Shown one piece after another: positions 134-57,575 of a stretch of 64,000 nt of DNA. The stretch is from positions 21,009,925 to 21,073,924 of the forward strand of contig NC_092087.1 of assembly GCF_045679555.1 (NCBI RefSeq), read 5' to 3'. Below the pieces are notes generated by a model, which ran no database searches, was not told the origin of the DNA, and saw only the letters and a list, made by a program, of their open reading frames with translations. The translations under genes were made by a program, and so were the position numbers. Positions within the stretch are counted from its first letter, which is position 1, and each line of letters opens with the position of its first letter. Source of the DNA: Salvelinus alpinus (Eukaryota > Chordata > Actinopteri > Salmoniformes > Salmonidae).

Positions 134-1562
134 TGATACAGCTCAGCGAGAGGTGCACTTTCCTGGCTGCTCATTTTCTCCAGGTAGCCATCTAGACCAC
201 ACGCTATGTCCAGGGCCTTCTGTAGGTTGACCCTCAGTTCCTCTGGAATGTTGGCATTGCTATCTGCTATCTCCTTGGCTTTGTTTAAGAAATCCACCAT
301 GAATTCCATCGGGGTGTCAGAGACTGCAGAGAACACAAGACCAAAACTGTACACAAGCCTATACAGTATAGAACTAATGAGTACAGTAGGCTATTATACT
401 AATGAACAATTTGAGACAGAAGGGGGGTAAAAAAAAAGGTGATACAGAGAAGGAGTGACGTTATAATAATATGGAATTCCAATGGTGTAAAGTACTTAAG
501 TAAAAATACATTAAAGTACTGCTTAAGTCATTTTGGGGGGGGAATCTGTACTTTAATATTTATATTTCACAACTTTTACTCCATTACATTCATAAGAAAA
601 TTATGTACTTTTTACTGCATACATTTTCCCTGACACCCAAAAGTACTTGTTACATATGGAATGTTACATATGATACGCACTTATCAAGAGAACATCCCTG
701 GTCCTCCCTACTGCCTCTGATCTGGCAGACTCACTAAACACAAATGTTTTGTCTGTAAATTATGTTGGAGTGTTGGGAGCGTGCCCATGGCTATCCGTGA
801 ATAAAAAATAATTTTGTGCCGTCTGGTTTGCTTCATATATAGAATGTAAAAGTATTTATACTTTTACTTTTAATACTTAAGAATATTTTAGCAATTACAT
901 TTACTTTTGATACTTAAGTATATTTAATCGGAGTAAACTGCTTGTATAGATGTCAACCCCAATACATGTTAATGCCATCGTCACCACTCAACTGCAATAC
1001 AGTTCAAAACTAGACTACCACCACGGATTTCTGTATGCTAGCGATACTACAAACGGGAGTTAGGAAACTAGCATTAGCAGTCACTTATTCTAAACCTGAA
1101 AAGGAACCAATTCTAAATGTTATGTAGCGAAAACAACCAAATATATTCAAATCGGACGTTAGTAACTACATTGTGGGCATGTTACAATACATCAATCTTG
1201 ACGGATTTGACGAATATCTACTTTGTTAGATCAGATTTGTTAAATGTGCGCCAATCCGGCGTCCTAGTCCCCCACGGCTGCGTTCCATGCATTGACCTCT
1301 TAACCGCATCTAACTAGTCCTATGTGTAGGTTATTTAATTTAATTACAATTAATATAAATGTAATGTTTAGTTTTATAATGCAAAAATAGTGGATTATTA
1401 TGAATATACTATTTAAGTGTCCTATCATCTTTCCAGTTGATGTTTCCCCGCGACATTCTCCTGCATTCTACAACTAACTAGCCCAACCATTCATTCTTTC
1501 GAGCTTCTGCAATCATAGCTAGTTCTGTGAGAAAGACCCGACATACCTTTGGCAGCCTGCAT
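134..1562 (-). CDS. MT-Ox: MT-Ox (methyltransferase-oxidoreductase of gadusol synthesis), first two coding exons, gene continues off the left edge
   Basis: Exon 1 (coding 1562 to 1547) reads MQAAK and ends at donor GTATGT. Exon 2 (323 to 134) follows a CTGCAG acceptor and ends at donor GTGAGT. The split codon G|TC restores VSDTPMEFM, so the frame holds across the junction (206 nt, 68 codons plus 2 nt). The start MQ-AKVSDTP and the helical stretch that follows resemble my memory of the zebrafish MT-Ox N-terminus, a segment before the SAM-dependent methyltransferase domain. In the known pathway MT-Ox methylates and oxidises 2-epi-5-epi-valiolone to gadusol using SAM and NAD. The catalytic domains are outside the window, so intactness cannot be judged. 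Divergent placement beside eevs strongly supports the call. Confidence 0.8.
485..935. repeat. dispersed repeat in MT-Ox intron 1 with inverted ACTTAAGTA-type ends
   Basis: The ends carry AGTACTTAAGTAAAAATAC (about 490) and GATACTTAAGTATATTT (about 915), roughly inverted, and inside are several AAGTACT/TACTTTTACT runs. I recall this block as a common fish repeat, probably a non-autonomous DNA element. It has no coding capacity. The rest of the intron (936-1546) shows nothing recognisable. Confidence 0.5.
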
Positions 1563-1649: not shown

Positions 1650-1757
1650 CTATATAGCTTAAACCCGTTTCAGTTGTGTAAATGTATCTTTATTGATGGC
1701 TTACGAAACTCCCCAAAATAAACTCCTAGTTTTCCACACAGTAGGTCCGCCCACGTG
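1650..1757 (-). promoter_or_regulatory. putative MT-Ox promoter: E-box, D-box-like motif, TATA box
   Basis: Reading toward MT-Ox there is CACGTG at 1757-1752, AGTTTCGTAAGC at 1710-1699, and TATATAG inside the palindrome CTATATAG at 1657-1650. The E-box is 190 bp upstream of the ATG at 1562 and the TATA box about 90 bp upstream. The transcription start is not known. The same motif set lies before eevs at nearly the same distances. Confidence 0.5.
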
Positions 1758-2082
1758 TCCGTTGACCTGTAAGATCTGTCTATCGATGTCAAACTTTTTT
1801 TGTAAACCTTTCGCGACAAATTGTTTCCATCATGTTTACACTTTTGTCATGAGGTGCTGAAGAGTTCAAATGAGCCATGTAAAATGTGAAATCATTCAAA
1901 TGATATAATAAAATAGAATGGATTCTTAGCTCAATACAAAAAGACATGAACAATCACCTTACTTCAAGAATGTGCATATTTCCCATTACTCTACAAAAAA
2001 GTTGATCTTAAACTTTCATCTTGGCTAATCCTAGACTGACATCTGCTTTTGTTGTCAGCTGCACGTTTTATTACTCTTTATT

Positions 2083-2504
2083 TTCAGGTGTAGGATCTTA
2101 ATTTGATTACCCTGTTGCTGGACAACTTTACTGCAATGATTATTGCATTTGAGGTTTAAAAAGGCTTCTGAAGTTTGTAATTTCCACTTTGAAATGTCAA
2201 ACCTGATTTTCCCTTTTAAAAAAAGTATCAAAATGGCAATTAATTATAATCCACAATTCCTGTAGGCTTATTTTCCTGTTGTAACAAACTGGCTCAAATT
2301 GTTTAACTAGGCAAGTCAGTTAAGAACAAATTCTTATTTACAATGACAGCCTAAGACCAGTGGGTTAACTGCCTTGTGCAGAGGCAGAACAACAGATTTT
2401 TACCTTGCCAGCTCAGGGATTTGAACAAGCAACCTTTCAGTTACTGGCCCAACATTCTAACCACTAGGCTACCTGCTGCCCCAAATTAAGATGCTACATG
2501 TATA
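2083..2504. mobile_element. MITE with GATCTTAATTTGA ends, split by a SINE
   Basis: The left end reads GTAGGATCTTAATTTGA and the right end AAATTAAGATGCTACAT, an imperfect terminal inverted repeat. Related copies or pieces lie at 28.18 kb, 33.25 kb, 40.62 kb and around the LINE at 42.4/46.2 kb. It lies between the MT-Ox and eevs promoters. Confidence 0.65.
2301..2481 (-). mobile_element. tRNA-derived salmonid SINE (HpaI-like), inserted in the MITE
   Basis: On the minus strand it starts GGGCAGCAGGTAGCCTAGTG (box A region), has a box-B-like GTTCAAATCC, contains GTTAAC (the HpaI site that names the family), and ends in TTGTTCTTAACTGACTTGCC-type sequence. Direct repeats CAAATT at 2295-2300 and 2482-2487 fit a target-site duplication. 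Confidence 0.8.
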
Positions 2505-3214
2505 TTTACTCTTCAAACAGAACACTATGAACTCACCAGATGTGCTCAGATGAAAAATGGTCAATTGAATGTGTTTCTATACAGTAGCTGGCCAGGTTGA
2601 CCTCTGACAACATCCATCCAGTGCCACAAATAAATACTTTCTCTTGTAACTGTTGCATACCTGTGTACAGTATGTTAAGTAGCCTAGGAGGCTACGTAAT
2701 TGAACATACCACAATTCAACTAAACAAAAATGTTTTTTTCTTACAGTCAATTTGGCACACACAAAAAAGGGGTAATATCCAAAGCTTTTTTCTCATGTTC
2801 ATCAGTCTGATAGCACATTTTCTGCACAAGAAAGCAAGTCTGATGTAGGCTCCCCCAGTAGGCTAAATACATAACCCTCAAAGAAGTCAAGTGTCCCAAA
2901 ATTTCACATGTAACTTTGCAATACATGTGTATCTTTTACAAATGTATTTATCTTGCTTCTCTTATTCCTTGAGTGAAATAAAAAAGACTTGACATAATAA
3001 CATACAGTATGTGTGATCAAATACAATTACAAATGGTCCATGACATTTTTATTGATGTGGAGTCAGAAGTTTTTTATTAAGTAGCCTAAATATTTTTTAC
3101 AGAAAAAAATGTAGGCTAATCAATTATATAGCCTATTGTGGGGGGATCCCTCTTTACATAATTCTATAGTTTCATTACATCACTCCCAAAAATTGTGTAA
3201 GGATCATGCTGGGG

Positions 3215-3323
3215 CACGTGCTACACAATGGTTTTGGCTACAGTTTCATAAGCACACTGGAAAAACTTGCTCCTCCCCTAGTAGAAGTGAAGTGGTCTGC
3301 TGTCGAGGATATATGTATATATA
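3215..3323 (+). promoter_or_regulatory. putative eevs promoter: E-box, D-box-like motif, TATA box
   Basis: CACGTG lies at 3215-3220 (within palindrome GCACGTGC), AGTTTCATAAGC at 3242-3253, and TATATATA at 3316-3323. The E-box is 196 bp and the TATA box 93-100 bp upstream of the ATG at 3416. The 12-mer differs by one base from the one before MT-Ox. The remaining 1563-3415 interval holds the split MITE and no other recognisable feature. Confidence 0.5.
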
Positions 3324-3415
3324 CAGAGAGTAATAAGAGGTGAACATTATGCTCCATTAGGTTACTTGTCTCTGTATCGGTCACTCATTAGCTTCCAATA
3401 CATAAATATATCAAG

Positions 3416-6400
3416 ATGTCGCTTGATGCAAACACTGGGAAGACACATGTGGAAGACCCACTGGAATGCAACAATATTGCAGTAATAAAGAAGAACGAGT
3501 TTCACTTAGTTCAAGTCAAGGGCACATGGAAACGCAAATCGGGAAATAAATTGAATAAAAATATAAAGGGTCGAGTATCAGCTGCCAAAATGTGAGTAAA
3601 ACTTGTGTTAAAATATAATTAAGGGATTCAATTGATTCAAAATAAATTAAAACGTTATACAAAATATAAGGTTTGTGCACATTATCATCATACATCTAAA
3701 TTCGTTTTCTTGATGATCTAGCTAGACTTTAAGTAAACAAATAAGTAGCCTCCCACTGGGCAAAAACTTGTTTCCACGTCATTTCAACAAAAATATTCAA
3801 TGTGATGACGTGTAATCAACGTGGAAAACTGATTGGATTTGCAAAAAGTAATCAATAAGGGAATTTCATAATTTTTTCAACCAACTTTTAACCTAAATCC
3901 AATGGCATGGTGAAATTGTTTTGGGATTCACGTTAGTTGACAACTCAACCAAATGTAAATCAAAAGTAGATGTGTTGAACTGACGTTTGTGCCCAGTGGG
4001 CTTGCACAAGACTTGACTTGTGTGATTCGGAATGTAGTGTGAGGCATCTTGATGTACAAGTACACCAACTGGACAGGACACTCGTCTATCGCAGGGCCTT
4101 ACTACCATGTATCTCCTTAATACTGAGTGCCAAGCAGAGACTCATCTGGTCCCGTTTTTACAGTCTTTGGTATAAGCCTGAGATCCAGGGCCGGCGCCAG
4201 AACAAATCAGTTGGATAGGCATTTGATTTCAGTTGGATGGGCTCGTTTTTTCATGGGACTTCCGGTGTTTTGAATTTTGTTAATGGCTGTTATAATGAAG
4301 ACCAAAGGCAGCTAGTGAGTTTCAAGTTTGTGGAAGCTCACAATTTATCCTACAATTTTACTTATCTGTATGCCAGTTATGATTATTTTTATATGCGCAT
4401 TTTCGTAACGTTTTAGTTTCTCAAAATTATTGTCACGTGGTTAATCATACAAATATGAATTAAAATGGTAAAAATCTAAAAGTTAAAATTAAACTAATGC
4501 AAGAGCACCAGCCTTTGCCATATGGACACATTGATAGCCTACACCGTGATCCATTATACTCAAGACACATTATCTTCACATTTTACATGCTTTTCACTGA
4601 CATCCGCAACTCAATAATCAGCTAGGCTTATTGCCACTTGCTCTGCCCAAATTGCTGGCTTTCCGAATAGGCATAGGCCTATGCACTTGTGATTTGAAAT
4701 CTTTTTTTTTAAAGAAGCTAATGATCCTCTATGGCTAAGTCAAGCTCTCTGGTAAAGTATTTTGACTGGAGTAATTATATAATTTTGGCAAAACATCAAT
4801 TTACTTTAGGGATAGCCAGCATCCGAACAGTGCGCTGTGCACCCGTCAACTTTCCGTTCAAATTCACAAGTGGCTGAAACCAGAGATCTGTATATAATGA
4901 CGAGATGCTCATGTCTCCACCCTAACAATGCAAATCGTTGTCCCAAAGGTGGGAATTCAGGCAATAAGCTTAGGTCTGCATATTATGCCCATAGAAATGC
5001 ATTGGGTTTATTTAGCCCTCTCACTTGGCCTCTTCCTCTCTGCTAAAACTAGCGAGCGCAACAGCGCCGCTCTGTCTTAGTATATCTAGCTCATGTATCT
5101 GATGCTGTCTGGACAGAAAAAGTATAACATGCCATACTCCTTTTGTCCAGACAGCATCAGGTACATGGTCACACATACGGAGACAGAGGGGCGCTGTTTC
5201 GCTCGCTCGGATGCTTTATCTGAGATTGTTGAATCTTTCTGTCATCGTGCGTCTCGGTCAAATAAATTATCAATATTTCAATATTTTATTTGGACGGGCA
5301 AGGATGGTACGGTAGGGCAGGCAAAGCCCTCTAGGGCTCGCCCATAATGCCAGCCCTGTGGAGATTGAACTCCCAACCTTAGGGCGGACACTTAACACAA
5401 GGCCACTGAGTAGACAGTGGATGACAGTGATTGAAAGTAAATATTTATTTCACCATGTGAATAGATGGCATAATGTTATTTATCCAGCCATCACAACACT
5501 ATCATAGTAATTTGCAAACACATTTTTCCACTTTATTTAGCTACCACCACAGAAAGTGAAATTGTGTGAATTTACATTTATCCCCGGGCTTTGTTCTCTA
5601 AACATTTACTGTACGTTTTGTACTGTACATAAAATAATCTGACAAATATATCACGTTTTCCAGCTATGAGAGCACCATGGAGCAAGGCACCTCCTGGACA
5701 GTGGTCAGCCCTATCGTCTTCACCTACAAGGTGACTGAGTCCCTGGGCCTGCTGGACCCCAGCAACGACACCCTGCTCCTGGGCCACATCAGGGACCCCC
5801 AGCAGCTGGAGGCCCTGAGGAACAGCATCAGCACCAAGCCCCTGAGGCGCTTCGTGGTCATGGACCAGACCGTCTACAACCTCTACGGCTGCCAGCTCAC
5901 AGACTACTTTGAGGCCCATAATGTTCTCTACAGGATCCTGCCCCTGCCCACCACCGAGGAGAACAAGTCCATGGAGCTGGTGATGAGGATCCTGGAGGAG
6001 GTCCATAAGTTCTCCCTGGACAGACGCACAGAGCCCATCATCGCCATCGGAGGAGGAGTCTGCTTGGACATAGTGGGCCTGGCGGCATCCCTGTACAGGA
6101 GACGCACCCCCTACATCCGTGTCCCTACCACCCTGCTCTCTTATGTCGATGCCAGCGTGGGGGCAAAGACTGGGGTGAACTTTGCCAACTGTAAAAATAA
6201 GCTAGGTGGCTACATACCCCCAGTGGCTGCTTTCCTAGACCGCTCCTTCATTCAAACTGTTTCTCGAAGACACATCTCCAATGGGCTGGCCGAAATGTTA
6301 AAGGTACAGTGGCAATGCCTGACAGCAACAGATATGGATTAGATATTGGACTGTACATGAACTTAAGATACAATACTGTACTATTTGACTGTATACTATA

Positions 6401-11910: not shown

Positions 11911-57575
<45,665 letters not shown>

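Follow-up and report, generated by a model that had tools for sequence, protein, structure and literature searches.

The stretch of DNA analysed here, called the window below, is 64 kb of the Salvelinus alpinus genome (C2:21009925-21073924; the genome searched comprises 2.37 Gb in 928 contigs), and it carries eevs and MT-Ox as divergent neighbours, a pair whose products jointly make gadusol, a natural sunscreen. Exon 2 of eevs gave a DHQ_synthase match and its last exon a DHQS_C match, and the best solved relative was 4p53, named Cyclase. MT-Ox extends leftwards beyond the window edge, and its exons match Methyltransf_3 and adh_short. An exon at 11914-12312 on the minus strand carries DUF3371, which we take to be the C-terminal domain of MITF, so that MITF adjoins the eevs/MT-Ox pair. 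The locus thus has what marks the vertebrate gadusol gene pair, a DHQS-type cyclase beside a methyltransferase-oxidoreductase and near MITF, and both the gene content and the neighbouring genes correspond to the gadusol cluster described by Osborn et al. (PMC4426668). The two first exons were placed as follows.

1547..1562, minus strand: coding part of MT-Ox exon 1, ATGCAGGCTGCCAAAG and then GT; the A of its ATG is at 1562
3416..3591, plus strand: coding part of eevs exon 1 with the donor GTGAGT, exon 2 with its DHQ_synthase match following from 5665; the A of its ATG is at 3416

When the MT-Ox promoter was used to search the genome, it led to C12:13873223-13873499 (71%), and the region there proved to be a collinear duplicate with the exons and promoter of MT-Ox, the promoter and exons of eevs, and the block that includes the MITF end. 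We take the C12 locus for the copy made by the salmonid whole-genome duplication, an event roughly 80-100 million years old. Between C2 and C12 the MT-Ox promoters are 71% identical over 256 columns and the eevs promoters 73% over 248. The eevs exons of C12 are open, the lone stop reported falling beyond the exon 2 donor. In the C12 MT-Ox (C12:13864691-13868621) four of the six pieces searched are open, including the methyltransferase and dehydrogenase pieces, and two contain stops, namely the exon 2 piece and a linker piece, which may include some intron sequence. Because this copy looks damaged at its 5' end, where the exon 1 donor is altered and the TATA is absent, part of the promoter conservation may be inertia. 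The elements upstream of the two genes, with their state in C12, are these.

1752..1757, minus strand: MT-Ox E-box CACGTG, inside the run CACGTGGGCGGA that is identical in C12
1699-1710, minus strand: MT-Ox copy of a 12-mer, AGTTTCGTAAGC
1699..1708, minus strand: core of the 12-mer in MT-Ox, TTTCGTAAGC, within an 18-base run identical between C2 and C12, GTTTCGTAAGCCATCAAT
1651..1656, minus strand: TATATA word of MT-Ox, without conservation in C12
1578..1586, minus strand: TTACGAACG, a second TTACGAA word, unchanged in C12 and placed in what is presumably the MT-Ox leader
3215..3220, plus strand: eevs E-box CACGTG, present in C12 too, which has a second CACGTG 10 bp upstream
3242-3253, plus strand: eevs copy of the 12-mer, AGTTTCATAAGC
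3244..3253, plus strand: core of the 12-mer in eevs, TTTCATAAGC; TTTCGTAAGC in C12
3316..3323, plus strand: eevs TATA word TATATATA, inside the run GTATATATACAGA that is identical in C12

An initial annotation of this DNA had described a mirrored layout before the two genes, namely CACGTG 190-196 bp from the ATG, a TATA word, a 12-mer between them differing by one base and a further TGGAAAAACT-like word, and much of it held. CACGTG does precede both genes, its 5' edge lying 195 bp (MT-Ox) and 201 bp (eevs) from the A of the ATG, and the claimed distance fits a count from the other edge of the E-box; with the C12 promoters included, the four copies give 195, 211, 201 and 201 bp, a range of 195-211. 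The 12-mer is present in both promoters with its one-base difference. As a shared element it stood in part, since its ten-base core, TTTCRTAAGC, is conserved in C12 and its first two bases, AG, are not conserved in either gene; the variation that had been noticed at the Y position returns in the two eevs copies, whose cores differ only there (TTTCATAAGC versus TTTCGTAAGC). Both TATA words exist, and that of eevs is kept in C12 (13 of 13 bases of GTATATATACAGA), whereas that of MT-Ox is missing from the aligned C12 copy. The TGGAAAAACT-like word found no counterpart in the C12 alignment of either promoter.

The identical runs of at least nine bases are CACGTGGGCGGA, GTTTCGTAAGCCATCAAT and TTACGAACG in the MT-Ox promoter and TAAGCACACTG, GCTCCTCCC, GTATATATACAGA and AGTAATAAGAG in the eevs promoter. 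The MT-Ox runs of 18 and 12 bases coincide with the 12-mer core and the E-box, and in eevs TTTCATAAGCACACTG became TTTCGTAAGCACACTG in C12, a single change in 16 bases, which falls on the R. At C12:13874339-13874354 the duplicate of the eevs promoter shows CACGTG twice with four bases in between (CACGTGGGGCCACGTG), the window having the proximal one only. The initiator motif YYANWYY was absent from 3330-3416 and from 1562-1645.

With an MITF gene at hand, the E-boxes might be targets of its product, tying the sunscreen to the pigment-cell programme, and the exon for the MITF C-terminal domain does lie beside the gene pair. The favoured MITF site has a T before CACGTG. The E-boxes of the window read ACACGTGG and GCACGTGC, neither of them such an M-box, and only the extra C12 E-box reads TCACGTGG. 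MITF control also says nothing on TTTCRTAAGC, and we consider it very unlikely. A direct link of the gadusol genes to the neighbouring transcription factor genes is left as an open question in the passages of Osborn et al. 2015 (PMC4426668).

Could two AT-rich promoters have come to share these words by accident, with the duplicate keeping them by inertia? Inside the window, the 12-mer is the sole 12-mer with at most one mismatch common to both E-box-to-ATG stretches, and dinucleotide shuffles produced such a match in 116 of 2000 cases, which bears out the chance of about 0.05 estimated in the initial annotation; the rate was 296 of 2966 among pairs of real random segments, repeats included, and 20 of 2000 shuffles when only the part from E-box to TATA was used. 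AGTTTCRTAAGC is an ordinary word in the genome, with 198 occurrences versus 157 for the reversed control. On window evidence alone the 12-mer is therefore weak, with a 6-10% probability by chance. CACGTG was counted 13 times in the whole window versus 5.6 expected, a number that none of 100 shuffles reached, and 11 of 5000 shuffles placed it in both 300-bp promoters. The alignment of the whole eevs and MT-Ox promoters was rejected as a sign of inverted duplication, being equalled by 180 of 1000 shuffles. Counting words blindly in just the two promoters of the window was also set aside, since it gave no clean pointer to D-boxes: with one mismatch allowed, the top oriented 8-mers were TTACATAA (a D core) and TATATAGA, six times each (1 of 400 shuffles), the top oriented words of seven and nine letters were ATAGATA (20 of 400) and ATAGACAGA (10 of 400), and on both strands the top words were TGTGTAT, TATATAGA and several at length 9 (4, 4 and 153 of 400 shuffles). 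A bacterial promoter scan was inapplicable to fish, and the two relatives at 30-34% identity from a search of viral contigs were not used.

The window-only judgement of the 12-mer as a chance match was reversed by the duplicated locus. We searched blindly for gapless words common to the eevs and MT-Ox promoters of both C2 and C12, allowing at most one variable column and presetting no motif. At length 10 this search returned TTTCRTAAGC only, and at length 9 it returned GGNCACGTG together with parts of TTTCRTAAGC. Among 2000 shuffles of the columns, 7 produced a 10-mer and 48 a 9-mer, and larger runs gave a 10-mer in 12 of 6000 shuffles, or in 17 of 4000 when blocks of two columns were moved; a 10-mer with a separate 9-mer never appeared (0/6000 and 0/4000, 0/10,000 in all). 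In a harsher control, 75 other aligned C2/C12 segments of about 260 columns or more, the two promoters themselves excluded, were compared in both orientations with each of the two promoters; every control segment exceeded 78% identity, none matching the 71-73% of the promoters, and with this difference a 10-mer was shared in 11 of 300 comparisons and two collinear elements in none of 300. The 10-mer alone is thus moderate evidence, and the pair of E-box and TTTCRTAAGC is strong evidence. An accident would fit the 6-10% of the 12-mer alone, the ordinary frequency of its word and the 11 control comparisons with a common 10-mer; it is at odds with the complete absence of the pair from both controls and with promoters that are just 71% and 73% identical, yet in which the 18-base and 12-base MT-Ox runs fall exactly on these words. 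We find it hardly credible. The elements, their conservation in C12 and their rarity as a pair are direct observations of this analysis, and what the initial annotation had observed is confirmed, more strongly than the window alone could show, because the duplicate places the pair far beyond chance; the interpretation given there is partly supported.

The distance from E-box to TTTC is 49 bp in MT-Ox of C2, 52 in MT-Ox of C12, 55 in eevs of C12 and 29 in eevs of C2. The pattern CACGTGN{22,52}TTTCRTAAGC occurs at 12 places in 2.37 Gb, four of which are these promoters, a count that is descriptive only, since these same four promoters set the limits of the gap, and the pattern is not enriched in the genome (12 versus 21 for the reversed control). 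Older eevs paralogues were found at C17:22540194-22540862 (77%) and C28:24001780-24003385 (69%), the former open in exons 2-4 and the latter with a stop and a disruption in exon 2. In neither do the 8 kb preceding exon 2 contain CACGTG or an exact D core, which is a weak negative since exon 1 of both was not placed with certainty; a single TTTCRTAAG lies 7.2 kb before exon 2 of the C17 paralogue, and the 27 kb around the C17 or C28 copy contain no piece of MT-Ox.

The eevs promoter holds, in addition, better D-boxes, GTGATGTAAT and ATTATGTAAA, which the initial annotation overlooked. The literature gives RT(G/T)AYGTAAY as the consensus for D-boxes and CTTATGTAAA as the site that functions in per2 (PMC2759001). 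Matches to this consensus near the eevs E-box are as follows.

3174..3183, minus strand: D-box GTGATGTAAT, 10/10 to the consensus; GTGACGTAAA in C12
3153..3162, minus strand: D-box ATTATGTAAA, 9/10 to the consensus and one base off the per2 D-box; its core is TTATGTAG in C12
3192..3201, plus strand: D-box-like ATTGTGTAAG, 8/10 to the consensus; ATTGTATAAG in C12, the core of the cry1a D-box

The first two precede the eevs E-box by 31 and 52 bp, their starts 21 bp apart, and no other two exact cores in the 64 kb are as close as 60 bp; among the 13 E-boxes of the window, only that of eevs has an exact D core within 100 bp. Shuffling the 300 bp before eevs gave at least one full D-box match in 94 of 5000 cases and at least two exact cores in 2 of 5000. 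Over the whole window, perfect matches to the consensus number 3 versus 2.3 expected, which is a chance number. In C12 the core at 3174-3183 changed from TGATGTAA to TGACGTAA, as the consensus permits, and that at 3153-3162 from TTATGTAA to TTATGTAG, which is a lost core, so that in this one genome the duplicate keeps the E-boxes, TTTCRTAAGC and one D core, and has lost the other. The 300-bp MT-Ox promoter contains no exact D-box core; its D-box-like CTTACGAAAC and GTTGTGTAAA reach 8/10, a level that is functional in cry1a yet common by chance. The 12-mer, a candidate D-box, likewise scores 8/10 to RTKAYGTAAY, as does, by our own count, the functional cry1a D-box GTTGTATAAC (PMC3516543). When one mismatch is allowed, the 300 bp before eevs contain 5 D-like cores (7 of 1000 shuffles) and those before MT-Ox contain 4 (14 of 1000), but real 300-bp tiles reach such counts too (at least 4 in 251 and 5 in 66 of 6370 overlapping tiles), and we did not rely on these weak sites. 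A local repeat within the eevs promoter, 3164-3195 versus 3238-3269 at 72% (1 of 150 shuffles), sets the stretch of a D-box against that of the 12-mer; we make no claim of descent.

The closest known arrangement is the Light Responsive Module of per2, in which an E-box and a D-box together suffice for light-driven transcription (PMC2759001). The per2 module has a CACGTG with a nearby D-box and lies near the start site; an E-box of the form CAYGTG is present in both window promoters and both C12 copies, and D-boxes matching at 10/10 and 9/10 lie near that of eevs. On the other hand, the per2 D-box lies downstream of its E-box, about 14 bp on, whereas the good D-boxes of eevs lie upstream and its downstream site is a variant. 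The cry1a, hebp2 and ddb2 genes are also light- or ROS-responsive through canonical or variant D-boxes, often with an E-box (PMC3516543, PMC12561580, PMC7891740): light-induced hebp2 uses GTGATGTAAC, one base off an eevs D-box, and two variants (PMC12561580), the photolyase genes and ddb2 have D-boxes for induction by light, ROS or UV (PMC7891740), and ROS act via the D-box (PMC6123470). None of these is a sunscreen gene, and their sites, like those of per2, were studied by function, whereas ours are known by their sequence. Zebrafish MT-Ox (zgc:113054) is among the light-upregulated genes reported in retina and/or pineal by Weger et al. 2011 (PMC3039656), a response restated by Osborn et al. 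2015, who also give a peak at 72 hpf for both zebrafish genes (PMC4426668); light control of zebrafish MT-Ox itself is thus already published. In the Weger gene set, E- and D-boxes were the most robustly enriched motifs, both being present in 44% of the genes with either (PMC3039656). It is the same gene in another species, and the passages of PMC3039656 and PMC4426668 that concern it hold no analysis of its promoter; zebrafish eevs (LOC100003999) is absent from the main text of PMC3039656. Among the matches listed in a search of the open-access literature, a scope that leaves preprints and most subscription papers outside, no analysis of the eevs or MT-Ox promoter was found.

The best reading of these data, and on sequence grounds a probable one, is that a light- and ROS-responsive E-box/D-box control governs eevs and MT-Ox. 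The light control proposed in the initial annotation gains from the blind recovery of the E-box and the 12-mer core, from the eevs D-boxes and from the light response of zebrafish MT-Ox (PMC3039656, PMC4426668), and it loses the MT-Ox TATA and the TGGAAAAACT-like word. Each gene would have a proximal module with the E-box GGNCACGTG 195-211 bp before the ATG and TTTCRTAAGC 29-55 bp further on, to which eevs would add its D-box pair, 31 and 52 bp before the E-box. The D-box sites would be served by PAR-bZIP factors (Tef, Hlf and Dbp, with Nfil3 as antagonist), the E-boxes by bHLH factors, and light together with light-made reactive oxygen would raise transcription of both genes, as for per2, cry1a, hebp2 and the UV-repair genes, so that UV screening would go up together with repair in daylight. 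We infer that these elements cause the MT-Ox light response and that eevs responds too; D-box factors would bind TTTCRTAAGC, and the place of transcription start is putative. Given the published data on E- and D-boxes, ROS, the photolyases, ddb2 and hebp2, placing the gadusol genes in the light/ROS class is the simplest account. Against this reading stand the lack of an exact D core in the MT-Ox promoter, the chance number of D-boxes in the window, the loss of the D core at 3154 and of the MT-Ox TATA in C12, the 10-mer alone in 11 of 300 real comparisons, the module without enrichment in the genome, the older paralogues without it in the 8 kb before exon 2, and a report that zebrafish MT-Ox is also affected by oestradiol (PMC3819264).

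Egg provisioning would use the same promoters differently: an oocyte bHLH factor (e.g. FIGLA) or oestrogen would drive both genes in ovary or liver, eggs would be loaded with gadusol, and TTTCRTAAGC would be a partner site. Gadusol is well documented in fish eggs (PMC4426668), zgc:113054 is in Table 2 of a study of oestradiol-responsive liver genes at 4 dpf, where the direction is not given (PMC3819264), and an oestrogen element with one mismatch lies between the genes at 2590-2602 (GGCCAGGTTGACC), its downstream half, AGGTTGACCT, being kept in C12. From the oestradiol list and this near-element, an egg-provisioning programme could use the same E-boxes, and their position also fits the FIGLA-controlled zona pellucida genes, which serve the egg and have an E-box within about 200 bp (PMC1906760), a likeness of position. 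However, oestrogen elements in the window are at chance (26 versus 22.9 expected), none being in the two 300-bp promoters, and neither FIGLA nor egg provisioning in general accounts for the D-boxes or for the induction of MT-Ox by light in zebrafish. We hold egg provisioning to be rather unlikely.

The words might also be generic proximal promoter sites, a USF-type E-box with a C/EBP-like site and without light control. CACGTG is bound by many bHLH factors, TTTCRTAA resembles bZIP half-sites generally, and the eevs core at 3174 and its C12 form are also close to CRE-type sites. Generic sites seem to us improbable here, because the promoters of light-induced fish genes are known to be built on a pair of E- and D-boxes and because zebrafish MT-Ox does respond to light (PMC3039656).

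Returning to light- and ROS-responsive control, the shared words kept by the duplicate make the control of this pathway by sunlight a concrete and testable proposal, not a coincidence of letters. If it is true, UV screening would belong to the same light- and ROS-driven defence programme as photolyase and excision repair, the targets for mutation are already specified to the base, and cave and deep-water fish could be examined for loss of the module. More tentatively, TTTCRTAAGC may be a distinct half-D-box with the fixed flank TAAGC, sitting on either side of the divergent pair from before the duplication of the locus, which together with the E-box would lock both gadusol genes into one daylight programme, a cis code for a vertebrate sunscreen pathway. 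A short upstream reading frame of four codons, ATG CTC CAT TAG, was seen at 3349-3360 in what is presumably the eevs leader, and its ATG is kept in C12.
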